This document shows, piece by piece, positions 17,937 through 64,000 of a DNA stretch of 64,000 nt (position 1 is its first letter; the number at the start of each line of letters is the position of its first letter). This stretch comes from a virus. The stretch lies in IMG/VR virus record IMGVR_UViG_3300049002_000006, positions 18,147-82,146 of that record; one strand, given 5' to 3'. The notes under the pieces are model-generated. The model saw nothing but the letters and a program-made list of their open reading frames with translations, was not told where the DNA came from and ran no database searches. The translations under genes were made by a program, and so were the position numbers.

Positions 17937-18520
17937 CGCCGGAGTTGAGGGCCTGGTCGAAAATAGCCAAGCGGCAACACAGGTCGATATCGGAGGCGAT
18001 GTGCGCGACATCGCCGACCGAGTTCGTTCAAACCGTCCAGATGATGGAGGACGAACTCGAGGACCCGGACCTACATTGCATGTACCAGGCTCAGACGGCT
18101 TATCAGCTGTACCTGCTCCGGCGGACGGTTCAAAACGTGCTTCGCACAACTCCGGACACGACGCCCCCTTTAGGTCTTAAGGACTTCATCCTGAAGTTCT
18201 ACAAGAAGACCGACGTTGTCTTGGACGAAGAGACCAAGAAGAAGGCGCTCGAAGCGTTGAAGAGGAATCTGTTCGCGGCTACCGGCTTTACCGGCAAGAA
18301 AGCGGACGACGGCGGGCGGCGGGGGACGCGCAAACGACTACCAGGTAGGGTGATCCGTGGCAACCTTCGACAAACTGATTCAGGAACTGGAAGCGAAGAC
18401 GGACAAGTTCGAGCAGGGGTACGCGGTAGCAGAAAGGTCGGTCAAGGCTTTCGGAGCGGCGGTCGAGAAGGCGATGACCCGGCTGGCGGCGGACGAAGCG
18501 AAGGCGGAGGCGGCGACTAA
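17930..18520 (+). CDS. Chaperone frameshift extension (T-like), GT product
   Basis: Reached by -1 frameshifting at 17924-17930, this gives a fused chaperone of about 336 residues (17511-18520). The extension starts S-I-T-P-E-L-R-A-W-S-K-I-A-K-R and is helical through F-I-L-K-F-Y-K-K-T-D. The last about 54 residues (Arg/Gly-rich) run inside the tape measure gene in another frame. They may be a by-product of a late stop codon rather than a folded part. No independent start with a good ribosome site is seen. Confidence 0.7.
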   Translation, partial: SITPELRAWSKIAKRQHRSISEAMCATSPTEFVQTVQMMEDELEDPDLHCMYQAQTAYQLYLLRRTVQNVLRTTPDTTPPLGLKDFILKFYKKTDVVLDEETKKKALEALKRNLFAATGFTGKKADDGGRRGTRKRLPGRVIRGNLRQTDSGTGSEDGQVRAGVRGSRKVGQGFRSGGREGDDPAGGGRSEGGGGD

Positions 18521-41987: not shown

Positions 41988-43033
41988 TAGTCCTCCAGAC
42001 TTTCGGTTTCCGCCTTCTTGTAGTCGTACAAGCCGGCGACGTAGGTAAACTTCCCACCGTCTACGATGATCCGGCGTTCCGGACTGACTTGACAGTCCGT
42101 GTGTCGTTTGACGAGTTCGATCAGGAGTTTCGGGGACACGGCAAACTTGAGTGGCTTTCCAATATACTTAACCTTCTTGAACTCGGTATGCTTCCCGTTC
42201 GGCCCGTGCCCAACGATTTTGAGGGCGTCGTTGGTTAGTTCGACCACTACGATGTTGTCGTCATTCTCGTCCGAGAACACTTGGGCCCGGTCGGCAGCGT
42301 CGCCTAGTCCCGGAGGCAAAACCGTCGGCACGCCCGTGACCTGAAGGGCTTTGTCCATGTCCTTAATGAATTCTGAGATCCACTTCTTCACACTATATAC
42401 CAACTTCGATCTGGTGTAGAAGTGAACGAAGTTTTCGTCCTCGGCAATGTAGACAGGGGCAATGACTTGGACGTGCTTGACCGACTCTCCTCGGACCATA
42501 AACGGCTCCTTCACGCCCGTTTGGAGCCTATATCGAGTAAGTTGCACACTGTCACAGGACTCAATATGCTTCGGGGTGATATGGACGCAGACCGTGTAGA
42601 ACATCGACACGTCCTTACCTACGCAGGTCATGGCGATGCCGATTGCGTCCGTGAAATCAGTATGGATTCGATTCCAGTCTTCTTTCTTCGGCAGCTTGAT
42701 CTTATCTACCGGAAGCAGGATCTCGCGGGCCGCCGGGAGTTCAGTCTTTCTTCCTTTACCTTTGATCACCAGATCGTTCCCGGACAGGCCCACGTCGATT
42801 TCTTCGTCCGGGAGTTTCGATAGAATCCGGAGTAGTGGGTCGGCTTGTACAGCACACACTAGGTCCTTTGGTAGGCCGCTTGGCGTTCGGCAAGCCACTT
42901 CCTCGTTGTAGGTGTAAATCCAACCGTTCTGAAATATGAAGTGCGTCGATTGCTCCACGATCGGCTGGTGCGAAAGCCCCGGCTTAACTTCGTCCAGTCG
43001 TTGCAGCAGGTATTCACGGTTGATTCGGGCCAT
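41987..43033 (-). CDS. Sliding clamp (DnaN-like)
   Basis: From the ATG at 43033 (TAATG overlap) the 348-residue product has three similar units of alternating strands and helices as in beta clamps: R-E-Y-L-L-Q-R-L-D-E-V, D-P-L-L-R-I-L-S-K-L-P, and a late P-K-L-L-I-E-L-V-K-R-H. The size and position between polymerase and other replisome genes fit a dimeric bacterial-type clamp. The clamp loader is the gene at 34537-35499. Confidence 0.7.
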   Translation of the reverse strand: MARINREYLLQRLDEVKPGLSHQPIVEQSTHFIFQNGWIYTYNEEVACRTPSGLPKDLVCAVQADPLLRILSKLPDEEIDVGLSGNDLVIKGKGRKTELPAAREILLPVDKIKLPKKEDWNRIHTDFTDAIGIAMTCVGKDVSMFYTVCVHITPKHIESCDSVQLTRYRLQTGVKEPFMVRGESVKHVQVIAPVYIAEDENFVHFYTRSKLVYSVKKWISEFIKDMDKALQVTGVPTVLPPGLGDAADRAQVFSDENDDNIVVVELTNDALKIVGHGPNGKHTEFKKVKYIGKPLKFAVSPKLLIELVKRHTDCQVSPERRIIVDGGKFTYVAGLYDYKKAETESLED

Positions 43034-52794: not shown

Positions 52795-53046
52795 TTACCC
52801 CTCCTTTACTTCTTCTGCGAATGGGATGTTTTCTAGGTTCTTTTTCAGAACTGCGAACCCGTTTAATAGACGGAACACGTCTATGTACGACCAGTTCCCT
52901 TTCACCCTCAAACTTCCTGAGACATCCATTATGATGTTGTCTTCCAGTCTAGCAAAAGCCTCCTCCGCCTCTTTGACGTGCCAATCTTCTACTTCCTGCT
53001 TAGTCATCTCTTGAAACTTTTTGTAATTGGTTTGGATGATTGTCAT
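52795..53046 (-). CDS. Small hypothetical protein
   Basis: It has 83 residues and overlaps the helicase gene by 4 nt. A helical first half (K-K-F-Q-E-M-T-K-Q-E-V-E-D-W) is followed by a beta segment (I-I-M-D-V-S-G-S-L-R-V). No motif is recognised; a helicase partner role is only suggested by position. Confidence 0.5.
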   Translation of the reverse strand: MTIIQTNYKKFQEMTKQEVEDWHVKEAEEAFARLEDNIIMDVSGSLRVKGNWSYIDVFRLLNGFAVLKKNLENIPFAEEVKEG

Positions 53047-54476
53047 TCTTGCTCCTTTTCAGTGTAAGTCCGCCAGCACGACCGGACGATCGGCTGATAA
53101 AGGTCTAGGCATTGGGCGACGTACAGCATTCTCCTGGACGAGAACTTGGCGGTCCTAAGGACGGACCAACTCAGCCGGCAGATACTCTCGTCCCGTTCCT
53201 CGTCCTTTTGATTGATACTGACCATCCCATCCACATGAGCATTCTTTCTTTTATCCTCCGAGAAGTTACTCCGGTCGATGACGTCCGCCTTGTACGCGGC
53301 GGCGTTGGTCTGCGTGGCCGTGACCGTCAAGTTATGAAACTCCTGCGACAGGGCCCGGAGCTTCTTCCAGTTGGCATTGATGCCGTCCCGTGATTCACTG
53401 TATCCAGGACTCGGGGCCAAGATGTCGGCGTAGTCAACAATTACCAGGTCTGGGACCCAGCCGCCCCGGCTCAGCGTGGCAACGGTTGATCGGATGTCGG
53501 AAACACCGAGACTGCTATTCGGATGGACGCTTAATTTGAAGTACGAGTCCTTTGATTTGACGGTATCGCCCTTGAATAGTCGAAACGCCTTCCAGGCTTC
53601 CAGTGGGCTGAGGCCGGTCGTGAACTTCTTCCTTTCCCATGTAATCTCCGGAGTTGCCACCTTCTCTTCGCCTTCCACTACGATCTTCGTAGGCCATTGG
53701 ACTTCTTTCGCGTCGAGAGGTTTACGAGCGGTTCGGACTTTGAACCTATCTATTACCTGGTCTCGACTCAGGTCGCCGGCCTCGAAGTACAAGACCCGCC
53801 GCCTCTGGCTGACGGCCCGGTAAGCCAGGTCTTGCAAGAAGAACGATTTCCCGGTCTTATCGGGGGCCTGAAAAGCTATGAAACGGTCCCGGCAAAACGC
53901 TTTCTTGAAAAACTCCCCCGCGGCCCCAGGATACTCGACCAACACCTTACTCTGGTTGACGAAGGACTGGTTGAGTGCAACTCGGTCCTCGAACAAGTCG
54001 ATCAACCCGCCGCTGCCTATTTCGATTCGACTGAACTGGTCTACTCTTTTATGGAAGGCAGCACTATCACCGCCGTCTCGGTCTCCTTGCAGGGCGTCAA
54101 TGAACTTGGCTTCTCGGACTTCGTTGAAGTGTTCGCCGGCCCGGTCGATCACGTAGTCCGGATTGATCTCCTTCTTGAGTCGGACGAATTTGTCGGATAG
54201 GCTACCTAAGTACCTTTCTACGATCTTGACGGTTGCTTGGTCCGATTCTGGCTTTTGTGACCAACTCACGAACAGGCCAGTCACGCTCCTGCCCGGGGCC
54301 TTGCCATACTTGTTGTGGAAGTTAACTGCCCAGCCGCCGACGACGTTGGCCCACGGATTCCGGAATAAGCCGGTTTTGTCCCATTTCGGGGCGATGCGGG
54401 CGACGACGTGATCGTGAGTAATCATTCCGGTCAGGATCTCGTTCTCGACCGATCCGTCGCGTTTACTTACTTTCAT
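53043..54476 (-). CDS. DnaB-like replicative helicase
   Basis: The 477-residue product has a RecA-type core from about residue 195: Q-A-P-D-K-T-G-K-S (Walker A, 203-211), R-V-L-Y-F-E-A-G-D near 230, D-L-V-I-V-D-Y-A-D-I-L (Walker B), and T-V-T-A-T-Q-T-N (the place of the S-Q-x-N sensor). The N-terminal 190 residues differ from DnaB. It unwinds DNA at forks and probably works with the primase at 58278-59150. Confidence 0.75.
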   Translation of the reverse strand: MKVSKRDGSVENEILTGMITHDHVVARIAPKWDKTGLFRNPWANVVGGWAVNFHNKYGKAPGRSVTGLFVSWSQKPESDQATVKIVERYLGSLSDKFVRLKKEINPDYVIDRAGEHFNEVREAKFIDALQGDRDGGDSAAFHKRVDQFSRIEIGSGGLIDLFEDRVALNQSFVNQSKVLVEYPGAAGEFFKKAFCRDRFIAFQAPDKTGKSFFLQDLAYRAVSQRRRVLYFEAGDLSRDQVIDRFKVRTARKPLDAKEVQWPTKIVVEGEEKVATPEITWERKKFTTGLSPLEAWKAFRLFKGDTVKSKDSYFKLSVHPNSSLGVSDIRSTVATLSRGGWVPDLVIVDYADILAPSPGYSESRDGINANWKKLRALSQEFHNLTVTATQTNAAAYKADVIDRSNFSEDKRKNAHVDGMVSINQKDEERDESICRLSWSVLRTAKFSSRRMLYVAQCLDLYQPIVRSCWRTYTEKEQE

Positions 54477-55359: not shown

Positions 55360-55430
55360 CATTAAATCGATTCTCCCGGCCGATCTATGTCGGGGCGTGA
55401 TTTTGTACGACTAAGACTAGATCGGCTGTC
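55360..55430 (-). promoter_or_regulatory. Inverted-repeat promoter element, copy 4 (helicase operon)
   Basis: GGCCGATCTA (55378-55387) and TAGATCGGC (55417-55425) flank a centre with GTGATTTTGTACG. On the - strand TTTAAT (55366-55361) lies 11 nt downstream of the proximal arm, followed by GCGAAGGAAACA and the start at 55348. Confidence 0.6.
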
Positions 55431-55480
55431 GGAGAGGCATTTAATCACGATTGTCCAGCATCTACGTGGGCTCACTCGAA

Positions 55481-56251
55481 TCACTTCTCGCCCGTTTTTT
55501 GCTTCATCAGATTCCACAATTCATTCGGATTAGTCAGACTGTGCATCCAGCTTTGTAGAGGATGTGTGGCCGAATCGTGTTGTGGTGTCCAGATCATGAA
55601 TGTCATACTTCCGTATTTCTCTAACTGAGCCACACGTAGCAGGAGTTCTAACCAACACTGAAAACTGAACCCGCTATAGTCGAGTTGATTCATGCAATCG
55701 TGCAGCACGTACCTGATTTGGCGGGCGAACAGCTTGTCTGTCTTTGCTGCTTCCTCGACTCTACAAACGAAAGCCTGATAATTGTCCAAGGACTTTTGCA
55801 TGATCTTACTTGCCTGGTCGAAAGAACCTGCCGGCCAGCCCCAATGATCGAAGTAGCTGAGGGTCTTTTTTAACCGGTCCGACACTTTTACTTGAGAAAG
55901 GTCTTTAGTCGATTGTTCGGTGTATCGGACGAAGGCGTCCTTGATCTGGACATACTTGTCCGTAAATGCTCCGGTACTGCGAACTACCGGAGCATAATCC
56001 CAGGTCAGCATCTTGATAAGGTTTTCCAACGTCTCGTTGATGTCTTCTCGGGTGTAGTGTTTGTCTAACTTCATCAGGTTCGTAGCCCACTTAGTCCTGC
56101 TAACCTTCTTTGGGGGCATCAGGCCCCGAGTCCGCAGAACTTCCATTAGCCTGTCTGTAGCGTCGAAATGCCATTGGTCCGGCTGCGCCTCGCGTGCGTG
56201 CGTGTGCGTGTGCGTGTGCGTGTCGGATTCATTTTGGAATATGGGTCGCAT
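55481..56251 (-). CDS. Hypothetical protein with Thr-His repeat start
   Basis: The ATG at 56251 follows AGGAGAG. The 256-residue product opens with T-H-T-H-T-H-T-H, coded by a CACACG repeat. The rest is helical with a possible wHTH (L-M-K-L-D-K-H-Y-T-R-E-D-I-N-E-T-L) and no enzyme motif. It could be a replication initiator or helicase-loader type protein given its place between operator sites and the helicase operon, but this is a guess. Confidence 0.5.
   Translation of the reverse strand: MRPIFQNESDTHTHTHTHAREAQPDQWHFDATDRLMEVLRTRGLMPPKKVSRTKWATNLMKLDKHYTREDINETLENLIKMLTWDYAPVVRSTGAFTDKYVQIKDAFVRYTEQSTKDLSQVKVSDRLKKTLSYFDHWGWPAGSFDQASKIMQKSLDNYQAFVCRVEEAAKTDKLFARQIRYVLHDCMNQLDYSGFSFQCWLELLLRVAQLEKYGSMTFMIWTPQHDSATHPLQSWMHSLTNPNELWNLMKQKTGEK
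56191..56224. repeat. CGTGTG microsatellite within a coding region
   Basis: A run of CGTGCG/TGTGCG repeats codes for alternating Thr and His near the N-terminus of the gene at 55481. Hexamer units keep the frame, so length change would alter repeat number and not the reading frame. Confidence 0.6.
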
Positions 56252-56448
56252 TGAACTCTCCTGATATTCGTTTGATAATTAGAACGAGGTTCCCTCTTCC
56301 ACTTCCTGCGCACGGCACTACCTTTTTCGCAATGTAGAATGCCCCCTCCTATTCACCAAATGGTAGATAGATCCATCTGGCATACTCCGTCGTCCGCAGA
56401 CCGCGCCAGCGGTTGCGGCGACACTGTTTTGTGATCGAAAGAGTTTTT

Positions 56449-56500
56449 GCTTATATATAGTTCCTGCAGAATTTGCAGATTGTGTCTGCAACGTTTGCAG
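56449..56500 (-). promoter_or_regulatory. Tandem palindromic operator and promoter
   Basis: Two copies of CTGCA-N5-TGCAG lie at 56464-56478 and 56486-56500, 22 nt apart start to start (two helical turns). On the - strand they are followed within 4 nt by CTATATATAAGC, a strong -10-like box. The gap from 56252 to 56448, about 200 nt, holds an untranslated leader with no convincing gene. A dimeric repressor or activator bound to both palindromes would block or help the promoter of the gene at 55481. Confidence 0.6.
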
Positions 56501-56516
56501 ATTTGACATTCTACGG

Positions 56517-56960
56517 TCAGCCGTTTTTGAACTCTTCCCATTTCTTTCGGAGTCGTTCTTCTTTGCTAATTTGTAGTGCTTCCATGATCTTTAACACGTT
56601 GATTTGGACAAATCTTTTAGGCGGTGATCCTTTTAGTCTGGTTCGTAGAAATTCTCTCTTTTTAAGGTCAGAAATCACATAGTATTGGGAGCGTTTTGAC
56701 ATGAAAGGAAAGGCTTCTGATATGAAGGTTTCCGAAGCCCAAAACCAGCCATGGAATCGCTTCCCTTTGTTCTCCCGAAGTCGTCCTATGAACTCTTCTC
56801 GGTCCATTAAATGTGACAGGAGCAACACGGAGGATTCCGGCATTATCTGGAATAATTCCTTAAAAATAGGCATATAGCTGTTCCCAGGAGCAAGGAGTTT
56901 TCGAGCTATACCAGAGTATTCGTCGGCAGAGAAGGTGCGTGAAGAATCTGGACGCGACAT
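56517..56960 (-). CDS. wHTH-type replication/regulatory protein
   Basis: From the ATG at 56960 (GGGGAAC upstream) the product has 147 residues. A segment F-I-S-E-A-F-P-F-M-S-K-R-S-Q-Y-Y-V-I-S-D-L-K-K-R-E-F-L has the pattern of a winged helix with wing, and the end is a basic helix (E-E-R-L-R-K-K-W-E-E-F-K). This resembles phage replication initiator or loader N-domains. It lies directly before the tandem operators in the transcript, so it is also a candidate for the protein that binds them. Confidence 0.55.
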   Translation of the reverse strand: MSRPDSSRTFSADEYSGIARKLLAPGNSYMPIFKELFQIMPESSVLLLSHLMDREEFIGRLRENKGKRFHGWFWASETFISEAFPFMSKRSQYYVISDLKKREFLRTRLKGSPPKRFVQINVLKIMEALQISKEERLRKKWEEFKNG

Positions 56961-56991
56961 TGAAGGTTCCCCTTTTCCCCGTGTGGAAGTA

Positions 56992-57054
56992 AGGCGGGGG
57001 GAAGATGCCCCGGGGAAGGAAGACATCGACAGATAGCTAGTCTGCCCCCCGCCT
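56992..57054 (-). promoter_or_regulatory. Leader RNA hairpin upstream of the wHTH gene
   Basis: AGGCGGGGGG (56992-57001) and CCCCCCGCCT (57045-57054) form a perfect 10-bp stem around a 43-nt loop containing CCCCGGGG. It lies in the 5' leader of the gene at 56517-56960, 32 nt before the start codon, whose G-rich ribosome site could pair with the C-runs. A translation control role is inferred. Confidence 0.45.
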
Positions 57055-57109
57055 ATTCGTCATTGTATCAAGAGTCGTTCACGGAGTTTTGCCGTCGCCC
57101 GTCAGATTG

Positions 57110-57190
57110 CATTATCGCCCGTTTGCGGGCCGATCTAGTGTCAGACGTGATTTAGCCCGCCCGCTACTAGATCGGCCCTTAGACGACGTT
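57110..57190 (-). promoter_or_regulatory. Inverted-repeat promoter element, copy 5 (best)
   Basis: GGGCCGATCTAGT (57127-57139) and ACTAGATCGGCCC (57166-57178) are a perfect 13-bp inverted repeat across 26 nt with a centre GTGATTTAGCCC. On the - strand GATAAT (57116-57111) lies 10 nt downstream of the proximal arm. It directs transcription toward the leader and gene at 56517-56960 and begins 4 nt after the stop of the gene at 57191. Confidence 0.65.
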
Positions 57191-57520
57191 CTAGGCCCCT
57201 TGGGATTTGGGCCTAATTTCGTACACCTCGATTCGGTCCACACCTTGTAAAACCAGTGCGTTGAGGTCTTCTCCTCCGTTGACCCATTGCAGTAGACTGT
57301 TTCTGATCGATTCCATGTCAACCTCCTCGTCTACCTGAAGATCTTTCATGAAGACGAAGAATCGCAGGTTGTCCACGTCTTCTATGTGGCCTTTACGGAT
57401 TGGCGGAATGTAAGTGCCGTCCCGGAGCCTACCGACCACTTCGTCCGCCAGAGCCGCAGCCGCCCCCATGTCCCCTTTCAGGACGGCCACGGCCATCATT
57501 TCCATGTCAGTTAGAGCCAT
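57191..57520 (-). CDS. Small hypothetical protein
   Basis: From the ATG at 57520 (TAATG overlap) the product has 109 residues, helical at the start (A-V-A-V-L-K-G-D-M-G-A-A-A-A-L-A), then alpha/beta with F-F-V-F-M-K-D-L-Q-V. No motif is recognised. The stop abuts inverted-repeat element 5. Confidence 0.5.
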   Translation of the reverse strand: MALTDMEMMAVAVLKGDMGAAAALADEVVGRLRDGTYIPPIRKGHIEDVDNLRFFVFMKDLQVDEEVDMESIRNSLLQWVNGGEDLNALVLQGVDRIEVYEIRPKSQGA

Positions 57521-58041
57521 TATTCCGGCCACCAGGGGTTAGAAGATTCGTCCGTCCAGACCCAGAGGGATTCGGTCGTGCAAACGAGCGGGCCCAGGAC
57601 CCCGCCGGCCCGCCACTCGTAAACCTGCACCTTGACGTAATATCCGTCTACGGCAATCGGGAACTGTGGATAGGTTTGTCCTCCTGACGTCGAAGGTAGA
57701 TGATTTGACCACACCGACATCGGCTGGTTGGTCTTCGCCCCGCCCGGACCGGGCACCACCATCATCTGGTACGTCAGGTAGGTCGTTGCGAGTGTACTGT
57801 CGGGCTGAACGTACATAACGACCCAGTAGGTCGCGTTCACGTCGAGGCCGCTCACGCCGTACAGCAGGTTGATCCACTGATCGACTCGGCCTAGACTGGA
57901 TAGTTCTGCCCGGCCGCCTTCCATCCAGGACACGGTGACTGTGGGCAGGGGCGGCGGAGGTGGTGCAGGCGGACCGCCCATCGGCTGACCGAACACAGCG
58001 CTGCCGAGGGCAGCGACCGTCAGACACAGAAACTTCTTCAT
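57520..58041 (-). CDS. Secreted hypothetical protein
   Basis: The 173-residue product has a signal peptide (M-K-K-F-L-C-L-T-V-A-A-L-G-S-A-V-F-G), a run of Pro (P-P-A-P-P-P-P-P), and a beta-rich domain with many Trp and Tyr. It is exported in an early/replication-type block, which is unusual. A superinfection or envelope-modifying role is possible. Confidence 0.55.
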   Translation of the reverse strand: MKKFLCLTVAALGSAVFGQPMGGPPAPPPPPLPTVTVSWMEGGRAELSSLGRVDQWINLLYGVSGLDVNATYWVVMYVQPDSTLATTYLTYQMMVVPGPGGAKTNQPMSVWSNHLPSTSGGQTYPQFPIAVDGYYVKVQVYEWRAGGVLGPLVCTTESLWVWTDESSNPWWPE

Positions 58042-58068: not shown

Positions 58069-58281
58069 CTAATTACCGTCCGGCACTGTCTGCCCTGGGG
58101 CGATCTGTTCGCCGTTCATCAATCTGACGATAGGGTTATTATCCCTATTGCTTCCTTTTGCCCACGCCAAGGCCGATACCATACCCATGATGCAGATTCT
58201 TTGGTCCTTCGATAATCCAGGATAAACAATTTCTTGTGCAAGTCGGTCGATTACTGATTGAACCTCTTCTAAGGGTCTCAT
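58069..58281 (-). CDS. Small hypothetical protein
   Basis: The product has 70 residues with a helical start (L-E-E-V-Q-S-V-I-D-R-L-A) and a helix I-C-I-M-G-M-V-S-A-L-A-W-A. It overlaps the primase gene by 4 nt. Function unknown. Confidence 0.5.
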   Translation of the reverse strand: MRPLEEVQSVIDRLAQEIVYPGLSKDQRICIMGMVSALAWAKGSNRDNNPIVRLMNGEQIAPGQTVPDGN

Positions 58282-59150
58282 ACTAAGAACCTCTTTCGCA
58301 AGGCGATTATTTCCTTCTTTGGGGCGGACGCTGGGTCCTTCCCCCCGATCCGGACTAGATAAGTCTCGCCTTCTAATCCTTCTAGTTCGGAGCAGAGTCG
58401 TTCGGCCCGCCGCTGGGCCCGTGGTTCGTTGTCCAGACAGATCGCTCGTATCGGGTACGACGCGATGCAGTCTATTTGGTTTTTGGTGTACGTTACGCCC
58501 ATCGTGGCGACGGCTCCAGGTCCGACTTTCATGGCGTCGAACGGGCCTTCATGAACCACCACAGAGTGTCCGGCCAGGTGCCCCCCAAATAAGTAGTCTT
58601 TAGCAGGATAGACCTCTGCTCCGGGCTCAGCGTTTCGGTATCTAAGTACCACTTGAGGGTCGATAGATCGAGTAGTCCAGGACACCTGAAGTCCTGTTTG
58701 GTCGTAGATTGGGATGTAAATTCGCCATGCGAGGTCCCCGGCGAATGGCCCCAAGCCCTGGACATCGTATCTCCTTTGCAGTAAAGCGGGCGAGAAGCCC
58801 CGATCTATCAGATAGCACTTGTGAGCCCGGAGAAGCGGGCCTAAGCCCTTTGGAACGACTAGTGTGCCCTTCGGCCTGACTACTTTCGGAATCCAGCCCT
58901 TGTCGAGGTCTTTGGTAAGAGTCAGGATTTCCTTGATCGGCCTGGTCGCTGCCTCGGCCAGGGTGTCGCCTAGTCGGTGTCCACCGCAGACCCAACAAGC
59001 ACAATAGCTGCCTCGCAGATTAATTCCTAGATGCCATTTGCCAGTTCGACACCAGATACATTTGATTTGAGCCCAGCCCGGCCGGCAGTGGTGGTCGCCT
59101 TCCGTCTTGTAGTCGATCCCGAGGGCTTTTAGGACGTCAATGATCGTCAT
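58278..59150 (-). CDS. DnaG-like primase (zinc ribbon plus Toprim)
   Basis: The 290-residue product has a zinc ribbon at C31-I-W-C34 and C52-W-V-C55. A basic region follows, and then a Toprim domain: V-V-V-H-E201-G-P-F-D-A and I-C-L-D240-N-E242-P (the D-x-D-like metal site). Length is short for DnaG; a helicase-binding C-terminal domain is absent. It makes primers for the family A polymerase and probably works with the DnaB-like helicase. Confidence 0.75.
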   Translation of the reverse strand: MTIIDVLKALGIDYKTEGDHHCRPGWAQIKCIWCRTGKWHLGINLRGSYCACWVCGGHRLGDTLAEAATRPIKEILTLTKDLDKGWIPKVVRPKGTLVVPKGLGPLLRAHKCYLIDRGFSPALLQRRYDVQGLGPFAGDLAWRIYIPIYDQTGLQVSWTTRSIDPQVVLRYRNAEPGAEVYPAKDYLFGGHLAGHSVVVHEGPFDAMKVGPGAVATMGVTYTKNQIDCIASYPIRAICLDNEPRAQRRAERLCSELEGLEGETYLVRIGGKDPASAPKKEIIALRKRFLV

Positions 59151-59320
59151 TTGGTTTCCAATACTGCGTCCTTCTTGGCGTATTCTTCCATGAACTTACG
59201 GAGTTCCTTCGTCATGTCTGTCCCTCGTCGGGCACAGGCGGCTTTGAACCTTTCCCGCAAGATTTTTGGGACGTTCTTCAGGAACAGACAACAGGTGTTG
59301 GGTTTAGGCTTGTTCGTCAT
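59147..59320 (-). CDS. Ribbon-helix-helix-like small protein
   Basis: From the ATG at 59320 the product has 57 residues. L-F-L-K-N-V-P-K-I-L-R-E-R-F-K-A and G-T-D-M-T-K-E-L-R-K-F-M-E-E form the strand, helix, helix plan of Arc/MetJ-type repressors. It overlaps the primase gene by 4 nt. A DNA-binding regulator is likely. Confidence 0.6.
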   Translation of the reverse strand: MTNKPKPNTCCLFLKNVPKILRERFKAACARRGTDMTKELRKFMEEYAKKDAVLETK

Positions 59321-59519
59321 TGATTTCCCTGCGGGTTCGGAGGGCAACGTTCAACATGTATAATTGGTTGGCTTCTGTCTTAGGAAGACCTTCTATGAGT
59401 TTCCGATAGCTCTCTTCCCAGAACCAGGCTAGTTTCTCGTATCTATAAGCGAGCCGGATAAAACCAAGACACAGGAGCATCTCCACTAGACACGCTATCT
59501 GAAGGAATTCAATCATCAT
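59304..59519 (-). CDS. Small single-span membrane protein
   Basis: The product has 71 residues. The first 25 residues are hydrophobic (I-A-C-L-V-E-M-L-L-C-L-G-F-I-R-L-A), followed by an amphipathic helix with Trp. It overlaps the helicase stop (ATGATG) and the RHH gene by 17 nt. Role unknown. Confidence 0.5.
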   Translation of the reverse strand: MMIEFLQIACLVEMLLCLGFIRLAYRYEKLAWFWEESYRKLIEGLPKTEANQLYMLNVALRTRREINDEQA

Positions 59520-60880
59520 TTCCCTTTGTTGACGAGGTAATTTTCTAAAGCGTCGAACATCTTGATTTCTTCCTTCTCAACCTTGCCGTCGAACGTCATG
59601 CTGAGCACCTTCCTTTTTGTCGTGAGAGTCCTGCACATAAATTCGTCTATTGTTCCGACTGCTGCCATCATGTAAATCATGGACGTTTTGCCCTCGACGC
59701 CCCGTCCCAGTCCGTGAATCCGGCCGGCGGCTTGATCCAACTCTCCGGGGGTCCATGGGAACTCACCGACCATGACGTGTTGAATGCCCAGACCGTTCCA
59801 ACCTACGCCGGCCGCCTGTGTGTTTCCGAATAGCAGTCTTGTGTGTTTGTTTTCCACGATGGCGTCGAACGCTGCTTGCCGTTTCTTTCCTGTCACCTGG
59901 CCGGTGACCTTTACGGCGATGTCACCGTAGTAGGTTGTGAGATGACCCAGGAAGTCTAAATGGTTGCCGAACGTAATCAGCTTTGACGGACTCTCTTCTA
60001 GAAAGTTGGAGATCCACTCTTTCAGAACAGGGAGTTTCAACTCGCCGACTAGCTTCCTGAGGTAGATCAGCTTGGCTAGTCGCTCCGCCCGTCTCGCCCG
60101 GTTGGCTCGTTCCATGCTCGTCGCTGCCAACCATTTAATGATGTCGCGTTCGGCCCGGTCGTATTCGTCCTTCCTGGGCAATTCGATTGGGAGTGTAATC
60201 CATTGAATCGCCGGCAAGTCTTTGAGGACGTCCTGTTTCCGTCTGCGCACCATTACGTTTTTCTTGAGGATTCGGTGTAGTTCTGGTATCCTTTCCGCCC
60301 CCGGGTATCTTGTGCCCCACTGCGACTTCTCTGGTGCACAGTATCGGTTACCGTAGAGCCAGAAGTTCGGCCACAGGTCGGGCCGAAGCATGTTCAAGAT
60401 CGGCCACAATTCAATAGGTCTGTTTGTCATAGGCGTCCCGGACAAAGACACCATCTTCTTTGCCAGTACGGAAAGGACTTTGGCGGCTTTAGTCCTTTTT
60501 ACGTTGCGAGTTTTACAATAATGGACTTCGTCAAGGACGAGCAAAGAGAAAATGTTTTTGGTCAGAAGCGGGAGCCAGGACCACAGGACGTCATAGTTGA
60601 TGATGTAGATTTGTCCAGGAGGTAGCACTGGCGGGTGCGTTCTGGAACCGAGTTGTACGGCCCGGGCCTTAATGTGCTTCCAGCATTCACGCTCCCAGTT
60701 GATTTTGATGGACTTCGGGCAGACGACGAGCATCCGGCCGGTCCGGACGAATATCTTATAATACCATAGGGCTTGGGCGGTTTTTCCAAGGCCCATTTCG
60801 TCCGCCAATAGCGCTCGGCCTCCGAACTTGTGTATCTTCCGGACGCCGATGCGTTGGTAGCCGTACAGTTTAGGACTCAT
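59516..60880 (-). CDS. SNF2-family DNA translocase/helicase
   Basis: The 454-residue product has the full SF2/SNF2 motif set. It has Y-Q-R-I-G-V-R-K-I (Q-like), A-D-E-M-G-L-G-K-T (I), L-D-E-V-H (II), S-L-S-G-T-P-M-T-N-R (III), and L-L-F-G-N-T-Q-A-A-G-V-G-W-N-G (V). Motif VI is Q-A-A-G-R-I-H-G-L-G-R. Such phage proteins act in replication start or repair (T4 UvsW/gp41 context). It overlaps the sigma-like gene by 4 nt. Confidence 0.8.
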   Translation of the reverse strand: MSPKLYGYQRIGVRKIHKFGGRALLADEMGLGKTAQALWYYKIFVRTGRMLVVCPKSIKINWERECWKHIKARAVQLGSRTHPPVLPPGQIYIINYDVLWSWLPLLTKNIFSLLVLDEVHYCKTRNVKRTKAAKVLSVLAKKMVSLSGTPMTNRPIELWPILNMLRPDLWPNFWLYGNRYCAPEKSQWGTRYPGAERIPELHRILKKNVMVRRRKQDVLKDLPAIQWITLPIELPRKDEYDRAERDIIKWLAATSMERANRARRAERLAKLIYLRKLVGELKLPVLKEWISNFLEESPSKLITFGNHLDFLGHLTTYYGDIAVKVTGQVTGKKRQAAFDAIVENKHTRLLFGNTQAAGVGWNGLGIQHVMVGEFPWTPGELDQAAGRIHGLGRGVEGKTSMIYMMAAVGTIDEFMCRTLTTKRKVLSMTFDGKVEKEEIKMFDALENYLVNKGK

Positions 60881-63589: not shown

Positions 63590-63999
63590 TTGACGATCTC
63601 CAGTTGGAGTTTGTTGGCCTGGACTTTAACTTGCCGGCCCATCAGGACCGTTTCTACGGTGTAGTTCGTGCCGTCGATCTTCGTGACGGCCCCTTCGAGG
63701 AACTGGTAGATGCCTTCTTTGATGCGGACTTTCTCGCCGACGGCCGGGCCGACTTTCGCCGCGTCGTACGGATTTTCTTTGGTCTTCTTCGTGCCGGTGC
63801 CCCGGATCAGGATGATGGCCGCCTCGTAGGTCTCGATGGGCACCGGTTTCCAATTTCGGACTTGCTTGATTTCGTCGTGTTCGGTCATGATGACTTCGCC
63901 GGTTTCTTTGTCTCGACGGACGTAGAACATCTTGCCCCCCGTGTCTTTATCGACGACCACGCCCATCGCCGGTCGTAGTTCTTTCGGCGGTCTAGGCAT
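63586..63999 (-). CDS. KOW-domain protein (NusG-like end)
   Basis: The 137-residue product has a C-terminal KOW-type beta segment (V-G-E-K-V-R-I-K-E-G-I-Y-Q-F-L-E-G-A-V-T) typical of NusG and ribosomal proteins. The N-terminal 90 residues are alpha/beta with W-K-P-V-P-I-E-T-Y-E-A-A-I-I-L-I. It overlaps the kinase gene by 4 nt. A role in transcription elongation or antitermination of the - strand block is inferred. Confidence 0.6.
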   Translation of the reverse strand: MPRPPKELRPAMGVVVDKDTGGKMFYVRRDKETGEVIMTEHDEIKQVRNWKPVPIETYEAAIILIRGTGTKKTKENPYDAAKVGPAVGEKVRIKEGIYQFLEGAVTKIDGTNYTVETVLMGRQVKVQANKLQLEIVK

Positions 64000-64000
64000 G

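Follow-up and report, generated by a model that had tools for sequence, protein, structure and literature searches.

A probable replication origin between the two halves of a split initiator in an uncultured phage

Introduction

The replication origin of phage lambda lies in the middle of its initiator gene and is composed of inverted-repeat iterons, with a pitch of 20-24 nt, and an AT-rich tract on one side of them (J02459 annotation). All four iterons are found inside the single O gene, which encodes a wHTH initiator. Lambda uses P and the host DnaB, and plasmids of the RepA_N type use the helicase and primase of the host. According to PMC7466680, the smallest piece of the lambda origin that unwinds consists of two iterons and the AT-rich region, and the two iterons adjacent to that region are enough for replication in vitro, whereas more iterons are required in related phages.

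In RepA_N plasmids such as pSK41 and pTZ2162, Rep is one protein with a wHTH-type N-terminal domain (NTD), a linker encoded by the ori and a helical C-terminal domain (CTD), and the iterons are mostly semi-palindromic direct repeats around a poly-A tract (PMC5703833 and PMC7145576). For pSK41, the NTD of Rep binds boxes located midway in the rep gene itself, and what the ori encodes is the linker (PMC5703833). The replisome organizer gp38 of SPP1 acts at direct repeats with an AT-rich element, in an oriL located inside gene 38 (PMC6316719); it is the product of a single gene, with a separate loader, gp39, and the phage has a second origin (oriL/oriR). Lambda O, SPP1 gp38 and pSK41 Rep thus have in common that the origin sits in DNA that encodes the initiator. 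RepA of PLE, a Vibrio phage satellite, is also a RepA_N-like initiator, and the repeats of its origin are in non-coding DNA, but the protein is a single one with NTD and CTD, and no origin between gene halves is described in the portion consulted of PMC7145576.

We analyzed a 64,000-nt stretch (hereafter the window) of an 82,146-base IMG/VR contig (IMGVR_UViG_3300049002_000006, from position 18,147), in which two palindromes most likely mark the start point for copying the phage DNA. The site resembles the lambda origin in its inverted-repeat iterons (two copies, pitch of 22 nt), in the AT-rich DNA adjacent to them (a 20-mer with 80% AT) and in the wHTH initiator encoded beside them, as judged from leave-one-out HMMs and the predicted fold. 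However, the window has two iterons in non-coding DNA between two genes, and this phage, unlike lambda, carries its own DnaB-like helicase and primase. Compared with RepA_N plasmids, the site has the same position, between NTD and CTD, but the gene is split; with PLE, it shares the non-coding location. The origin type itself is known from phages and plasmids, and the variant part is the split initiator around it. In the literature searched, which covered few subscription journals, we recognized no O- or RepA-type initiator described as divided around its own origin.

Materials and Methods

No near DNA relatives of the window and no close relatives of its wHTH protein were found in the phage collection or in IMG/VR; tblastn with the wHTH protein returned five records, the best (E 0.01) being the O-like protein of Fusobacterium phage phiBB. 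As a query, the wHTH protein matched 3 of 46 records, the SNF2 helicase gave one locus and the terminase four, the DnaB-like helicase on its own gave no loci, and the full initiator of one relative (L105) found nothing in the phage collection. Relatives of the DnaB-like helicase were present in 24 of 46 records searched (46 of the 68 then collected). The family was reached through the DNA polymerase (63 loci) and then through a helicase alignment, by which 80 of 404 were kept in IMG/VR, with 36 loci in genomes.

Twenty stretches were fetched first and 14 of them tested, L110, L111, L113 and L115 being near copies and L118 and L123 short. Among 131 loci examined, 101 had a primase preceding a helicase, 82 of these were non-redundant, and 46 carried both halves of the initiator as recognized by iterated HMMs for the two halves (E<0.001). 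Tandem repeats were scored at lags of 15-30 nt with a 20-nt window (w=20). Pairs of equal-arm palindromes were counted with 5-nt arms, the same spacer and 12-40 nt between copies.

As a control, in a 3.1-kb stretch of lambda (J02459) the strongest repeat at w=20 was inside O, at the annotated iterons. A longer window (w=40) was also tried and set aside; it gave the same result as w=20 in the first relatives (12 of 14), but its top score in lambda corresponded to the operators and not to the iterons, and 96 outside positions of the present genome scored as high.

Results

Organization of the Site

The genes around the site form a replication module on the - strand. They run, in order, from an SNF2-type helicase (59516..60880; SNF2-rel_dom, E 1.3e-28), a further neighbor, through a ribbon-helix-helix (RHH) gene (59147..59347), a DNA primase (58278..59150; zinc-binding/Toprim, phrog_47, E 6.8e-30), three small ORFs, the wHTH gene (56517..57026), the gap with the palindromes, a 256-aa gene (55481..56251) and two small ORFs, to a DnaB-like replicative helicase (53043..54476; phrog_19, E 2.8e-22). 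Primase and DnaB-like helicase are the upstream and downstream borders of what we call the initiator interval. An ORF similar to the SNF2-type one starts upstream of the primase in L105, L106, L108, L109, L114 and L116, as judged by eye.

The gap (56252..56516, - strand) has 265 nt, with stops in all three frames. As a reading made from the sequence alone had stated, it contains two exact CTGCA-N5-TGCAG palindromes whose starts are 22 nt apart, next to TATATATAAG (56450-56459, read on the - strand). Iteron 1, the one farther from the AT-rich element, occupies 56486..56500 (window letters CTGCAACGTTTGCAG, 6-nt arms) and reads CTGCAAACGTTGCAG on the - strand, within the 17-nt TCTGCAAACGTTGCAGA; its arms reach 7 nt if the flanks are counted. 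Iteron 2, proximal to the AT-rich element, occupies 56464..56478 (window letters CTGCAGAATTTGCAG, 5-nt arms) and reads CTGCAAATTCTGCAG on the - strand. Being 22 nt apart, the two make a direct repeat of 22-nt units. The candidate DNA-unwinding element (56438..56459) includes TATATATAAG on the - strand, and its first 20 nt (56438-56457) reach 80% AT, a value found in only 0.15% of the windows of this size in the genome (mean 45%). Over the full 60 nt on each side of the array there is no AT excess downstream compared with upstream (0.55 v 0.55).

The same reading had called for a search of the palindrome elsewhere in the genome. CTGCAN5TGCAG occurs exactly at the two sites only, both in the window and on both strands of the contig, which thus holds no second exact copy of the iteron pattern, in contrast with the two origins of SPP1. 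With up to two mismatches, there are 28 matches in the window against 16.75 in shuffles (sd 4.47). As a plain tandem repeat the site is unexceptional, its score being equaled at 42 of 78,345 positions outside the primase-helicase interval (w=20), as would be expected if the palindromes were the product of chance or of a simple duplication without function. That explanation is highly improbable, however, given that the genome has two equal-arm palindrome pairs whereas 60 dinucleotide shuffles yielded 0.017 on average and never more than 1, and that the best repeat is in the same place in all the split loci described below. The array of the window is also palindromic compared with unit shuffles (p 0.02).

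The palindromes had been interpreted mainly as operators on a - strand promoter. A dimeric regulator bound there would control transcription from TATATATAAG of the 256-aa gene and of the genes that follow it. Their spacing of two helical turns beside an A/T hexamer, some 200 nt upstream of a - strand gene, agrees with such a role, and one site could serve as both operator and origin. On the other hand, a scan of 55400-57600 for sigma-70-like promoters, the only type covered, detected none on the - strand at the site; the two promoter-like sites of the region are both on the + strand (1.9 in shuffles). Moreover, in 24 of 39 relatives with a fused initiator the best repeat is within the initiator reading frame. 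The operator interpretation lost ground with these results, and we consider it unlikely.

One copy of the palindrome makes a weak terminator-like stem on the + strand (four such sites in the region, 2.2 in shuffles), which could suggest a transcription terminator or an RNA hairpin where the wHTH gene ends. But the strand is wrong for that gene, no T run follows on the - strand, and units with a pitch of 17-26 nt recur in relatives, often inside coding DNA, which makes a terminator very unlikely.

The cumulative GC skew has no turn at the site (contig ~74.6 kb), peaking at contig position 42,592 and being lowest at 143. Two other repeats were seen nearby. A GTGCGT-type microsatellite at 56193-56224 encodes a THTHTHTH run in the N terminus of the 256-aa protein, and an inverted repeat, AGGCGGGGGGAAGA / TCTGCCCCCCGCCT, at 56992-57054, lies upstream of an internal ATG of the wHTH gene (56960); the latter might serve in termination or in the control of the initiator.

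Homology of the Flanking Genes

The wHTH gene encodes 169 aa, the predicted DNA-binding N-terminal half of an initiator, and the 256-aa gene, with a Shine-Dalgarno-like AGGAG before its ATG, encodes the C-terminal half, a candidate helicase- or primosome-recruiting part. Because the window was itself part of the iterated models, the HMMs of both halves were rebuilt without it; the models from the initiators of relatives recognized the wHTH gene with E 6.2e-9 and the 256-aa gene with E 3e-30. Comparison of each single protein with small alignments of relatives by hhalign gave a probability of 80.9 (E 1.3e-5) for the wHTH protein and 95.1 (E 3.2e-8) for the 256-aa protein. In 39 of the 46 loci, both halves are found in one gene of about 230-445 aa between primase and helicase. 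Homology and position show that most relatives make a single protein out of the two halves that this phage encodes separately, as the wHTH and the 256-aa protein.

The wHTH protein of the window matched phrog_678, "replication initiation O-like", weakly (E 0.0065), with no PHROG match at E 0.001 and no match in Pfam. The NTDs of relatives match O-like PHROGs, phrog_678 in 16 of 31. Ten proteins from relatives were scanned against PHROGs; nine match PHROGs named replication initiation, including the 114-aa wHTH protein of L108, and the tenth, the C-terminal half from L108, matches a DnaD-like helicase loader (E 7e-4). The 31 NTDs matched 18 Pfam families at E 0.01, with DnaD_N found in six NTDs; neither the phage replication O family nor RepA_N (PF06970) was among the 18, and the window protein matched none.

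AlphaFold2 models had a mean pLDDT of 87.4 for the wHTH protein and 83.5 for the 256-aa protein (alignments of 31 and 30 sequences, respectively). With Foldseek, neither half had a PDB match at E up to 0.001; TFIIE and other regulators led the list for the wHTH protein, and RepA first appeared at rank 13 (4pql, E 0.058). In a second look with VIA-align, the top four rows for the wHTH model were 4pql, 4pt7 and 5kbj (Z 10.4-10.8) and 4pta (9.9), with rmsd of 4.1-5.8 over 106-122 aligned residues. Their titles name an initiator, a Rep-DNA complex or the N-terminal domain of a DNA-binding protein. We take 4pql and 5kbj to be RepA_N proteins; 4pt7 and 4pta are given as such in PMC7145576. The margin of this RepA-type fold match is small because other wHTH proteins follow at Z 9.8 and below (DnaD 2v79, 9.0). 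The 256-aa model is all-helical. VIA-align gave it one row above Z 5 (Z 5.2 over 79 aligned residues), a chain from the lambda P-DnaB entry; this score is below the trust level of the tool, and the likeness to lambda P-DnaB is only a hint.

At a cut-off of E 0.01, the 82 non-redundant loci, counted by eye, comprised 39 with a fused initiator, seven with a split one, 15 with the C-terminal half only, eight with the N-terminal half only and 13 with neither. The 15 loci, among them L159, L174, L183 and L197, carry a C-terminal half for which no wHTH half was recognized in the primase-helicase interval; the partner of this half could be an unrelated protein or have its gene elsewhere. In two other loci (L138:2924-3250 and L171:3486-3797), a second wHTH ORF stands in tandem with the N-terminal half of the initiator.

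Repeats in Related Phages

Among the 14 relatives of the first test, 12 had their strongest tandem repeat, taken over the whole stretch, between primase and helicase; the exceptions were L112 and L124. The same was true for 39 of the 82 non-redundant loci, where 15.3 are expected by length; the 11-kb stretch from the window is not among the 39, three positions outside the interval scoring as high.

Within the interval, the best short-lag repeat was at the join of the N- and C-terminal halves in 31 of 46 loci, against 4.7 expected by length (Poisson-binomial P 6e-22 under the assumption of evenly distributed repeats), and in 23 of 28 loci if only repeats with a score of 20 or more are considered. 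It was at the join in 7/7 split and 24/39 fused loci, inside the reading frame in the latter, and off the join in 15/46. Repeat-prone protein linkers may inflate the fused-locus count. Of the 29 join arrays scoring at least 15, 16 are more palindromic than unit shuffles (p<0.05), with a mean arm of 6.7 v 3.5, and the AT content is higher downstream of the arrays than upstream (0.607 and 0.549; p 0.004, n=29).

Iteron sequences vary between phages. In the 23 loci with a score of 20 or more, a set that leaves out the window (19.8), iteron similarity tracked the similarity of the wHTH half, both in a linear Mantel test (r 0.37, p 0.0005) and by rank (r 0.20, p 0.0015), and did not track that of the C-terminal half (r 0.04, p 0.29) or of the helicase. 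With 29 loci, the window included, the values were rank r 0.10, p 0.028 for the wHTH half and r 0.02, p 0.39 for the C-terminal half. The correlation between iterons and wHTH is suggestive only, because dropping two small clusters removes its significance (r 0.10, p 0.11). The wHTH protein, encoded next to the palindromes, had been proposed as a ligand for them; its identification as the N-terminal half of an initiator, by HMMs and fold, now adds to that proposal, while the covariation with the iterons rests on the two clusters.

The RHH protein was the other ligand proposed, and it might bind the palindromes as an operator or as a partition, centromere-like site. RHH proteins bind short repeats, and this one is weakly ParG-like (RHH_10, E 3.2e-4; ParG, E 6e-4, both below Pfam gathering scores). 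An HMM built from two seeds detected its gene, a conserved neighbor, in 35 of 46 loci (E<0.01), a count that includes both seeds. Nevertheless, in the 22 loci compared iteron similarity follows that of wHTH (r 0.13, p 0.027) and not that of RHH (rank r -0.005, p 0.53), which makes RHH less likely as the ligand. The repeats are located at the initiator join and not at the RHH gene, which was not seen in the fetched stretch of seven of 29 loci with join repeats, although these stretches are cut. Binding by RHH is, in our view, a distinctly unlikely explanation for the site.

Split Loci

The initiator gene is split in seven of the 46 loci (the window, L108, L138, L156, L164, L173 and L181), with 117-318 nt between the halves and stops in every frame of the gaps, except for one frame in L108. 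In all seven, the best repeat falls in the gap (P 8e-7 for the join), that of L138 beginning 3 nt inside the wHTH gene and that of L173 being weak and not palindromic. L108 (IMG/VR 3300037487_001247) has the layout of the window, with its wHTH gene followed by a 155-nt gap, a 247-aa gene and the helicase; its gap contains three GTGCTATRTATAGCAC palindromes and an AT-rich tract.

The splits require four changes on the helicase tree and five on each of the wHTH and C-terminal trees. Well-supported branches force only one of these changes, and a single origin of splitting would be compatible with the trees.

Discussion

We propose, with a probability of about 0.78, that the site is an origin of the lambda-O/RepA_N-like type, made up of two iterons and an adjacent AT-rich element, between the halves of a split initiator. 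The sequence-only reading had mentioned an origin as a secondary option, which is the one now favored by the homology of the half-genes and by the position of the repeat at their join. Points against it are the GC skew without a turn at the site, the low number of iterons and the lack of a Pfam match for the wHTH protein, together with the loci whose best repeat is off the join. By analogy with lambda and RepA_N systems, the wHTH protein would bind the two palindromic iterons, probably as dimers, and help melt the adjacent AT-rich TATATATA element; the 256-aa protein would then help bring the DnaB-like helicase and the primase of the phage to the opened DNA. In fused relatives, homology and position show that the DNA coding for the linker often carries the iterons. 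The gene is broken at the linker in this phage and six other sampled loci, which places the proposed origin in non-coding DNA between the halves.

More tentatively, and with somewhat less than even confidence, we suggest a two-protein initiator in which a small origin-recognizing protein works in trans with a separate replisome recruiter, the break at the linker having freed the origin from coding constraint in several lineages independently. Since the split loci naturally separate the origin from the coding of the initiator, two jobs of the same DNA in the known systems, they allow one to ask directly what the linker does and whether the DNA-binding and helicase-recruiting halves need to be joined, as well as how the specificity of origins changes. 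Origins in uncultured phages of this family can also be proposed by a simple rule, a repeat at the N-C join in the primase-helicase interval.

The first 127 bases of the contig (L003:1-127) recur exactly at its other end (window 63874-64000), and therefore the genome is probably complete at 82,019 bp, with a circular or terminally redundant map. The only other equal-arm palindrome pair of the genome (contig 915/947) is of a different sequence and belongs to a 32-bp GC-rich unit with the palindrome GCAATTTTTAGCTATTGC, tandemly duplicated at L003:915-965, at the 3' end of a - strand ORF (958-1173) and 8 kb from the proposed origin on the circle. Another inverted repeat, TTTTTGCGGACATAAACATATGTCCGCAAAAA, is found at L003:1642-1673, close to the 3' end of a - strand ORF (1634-1939).
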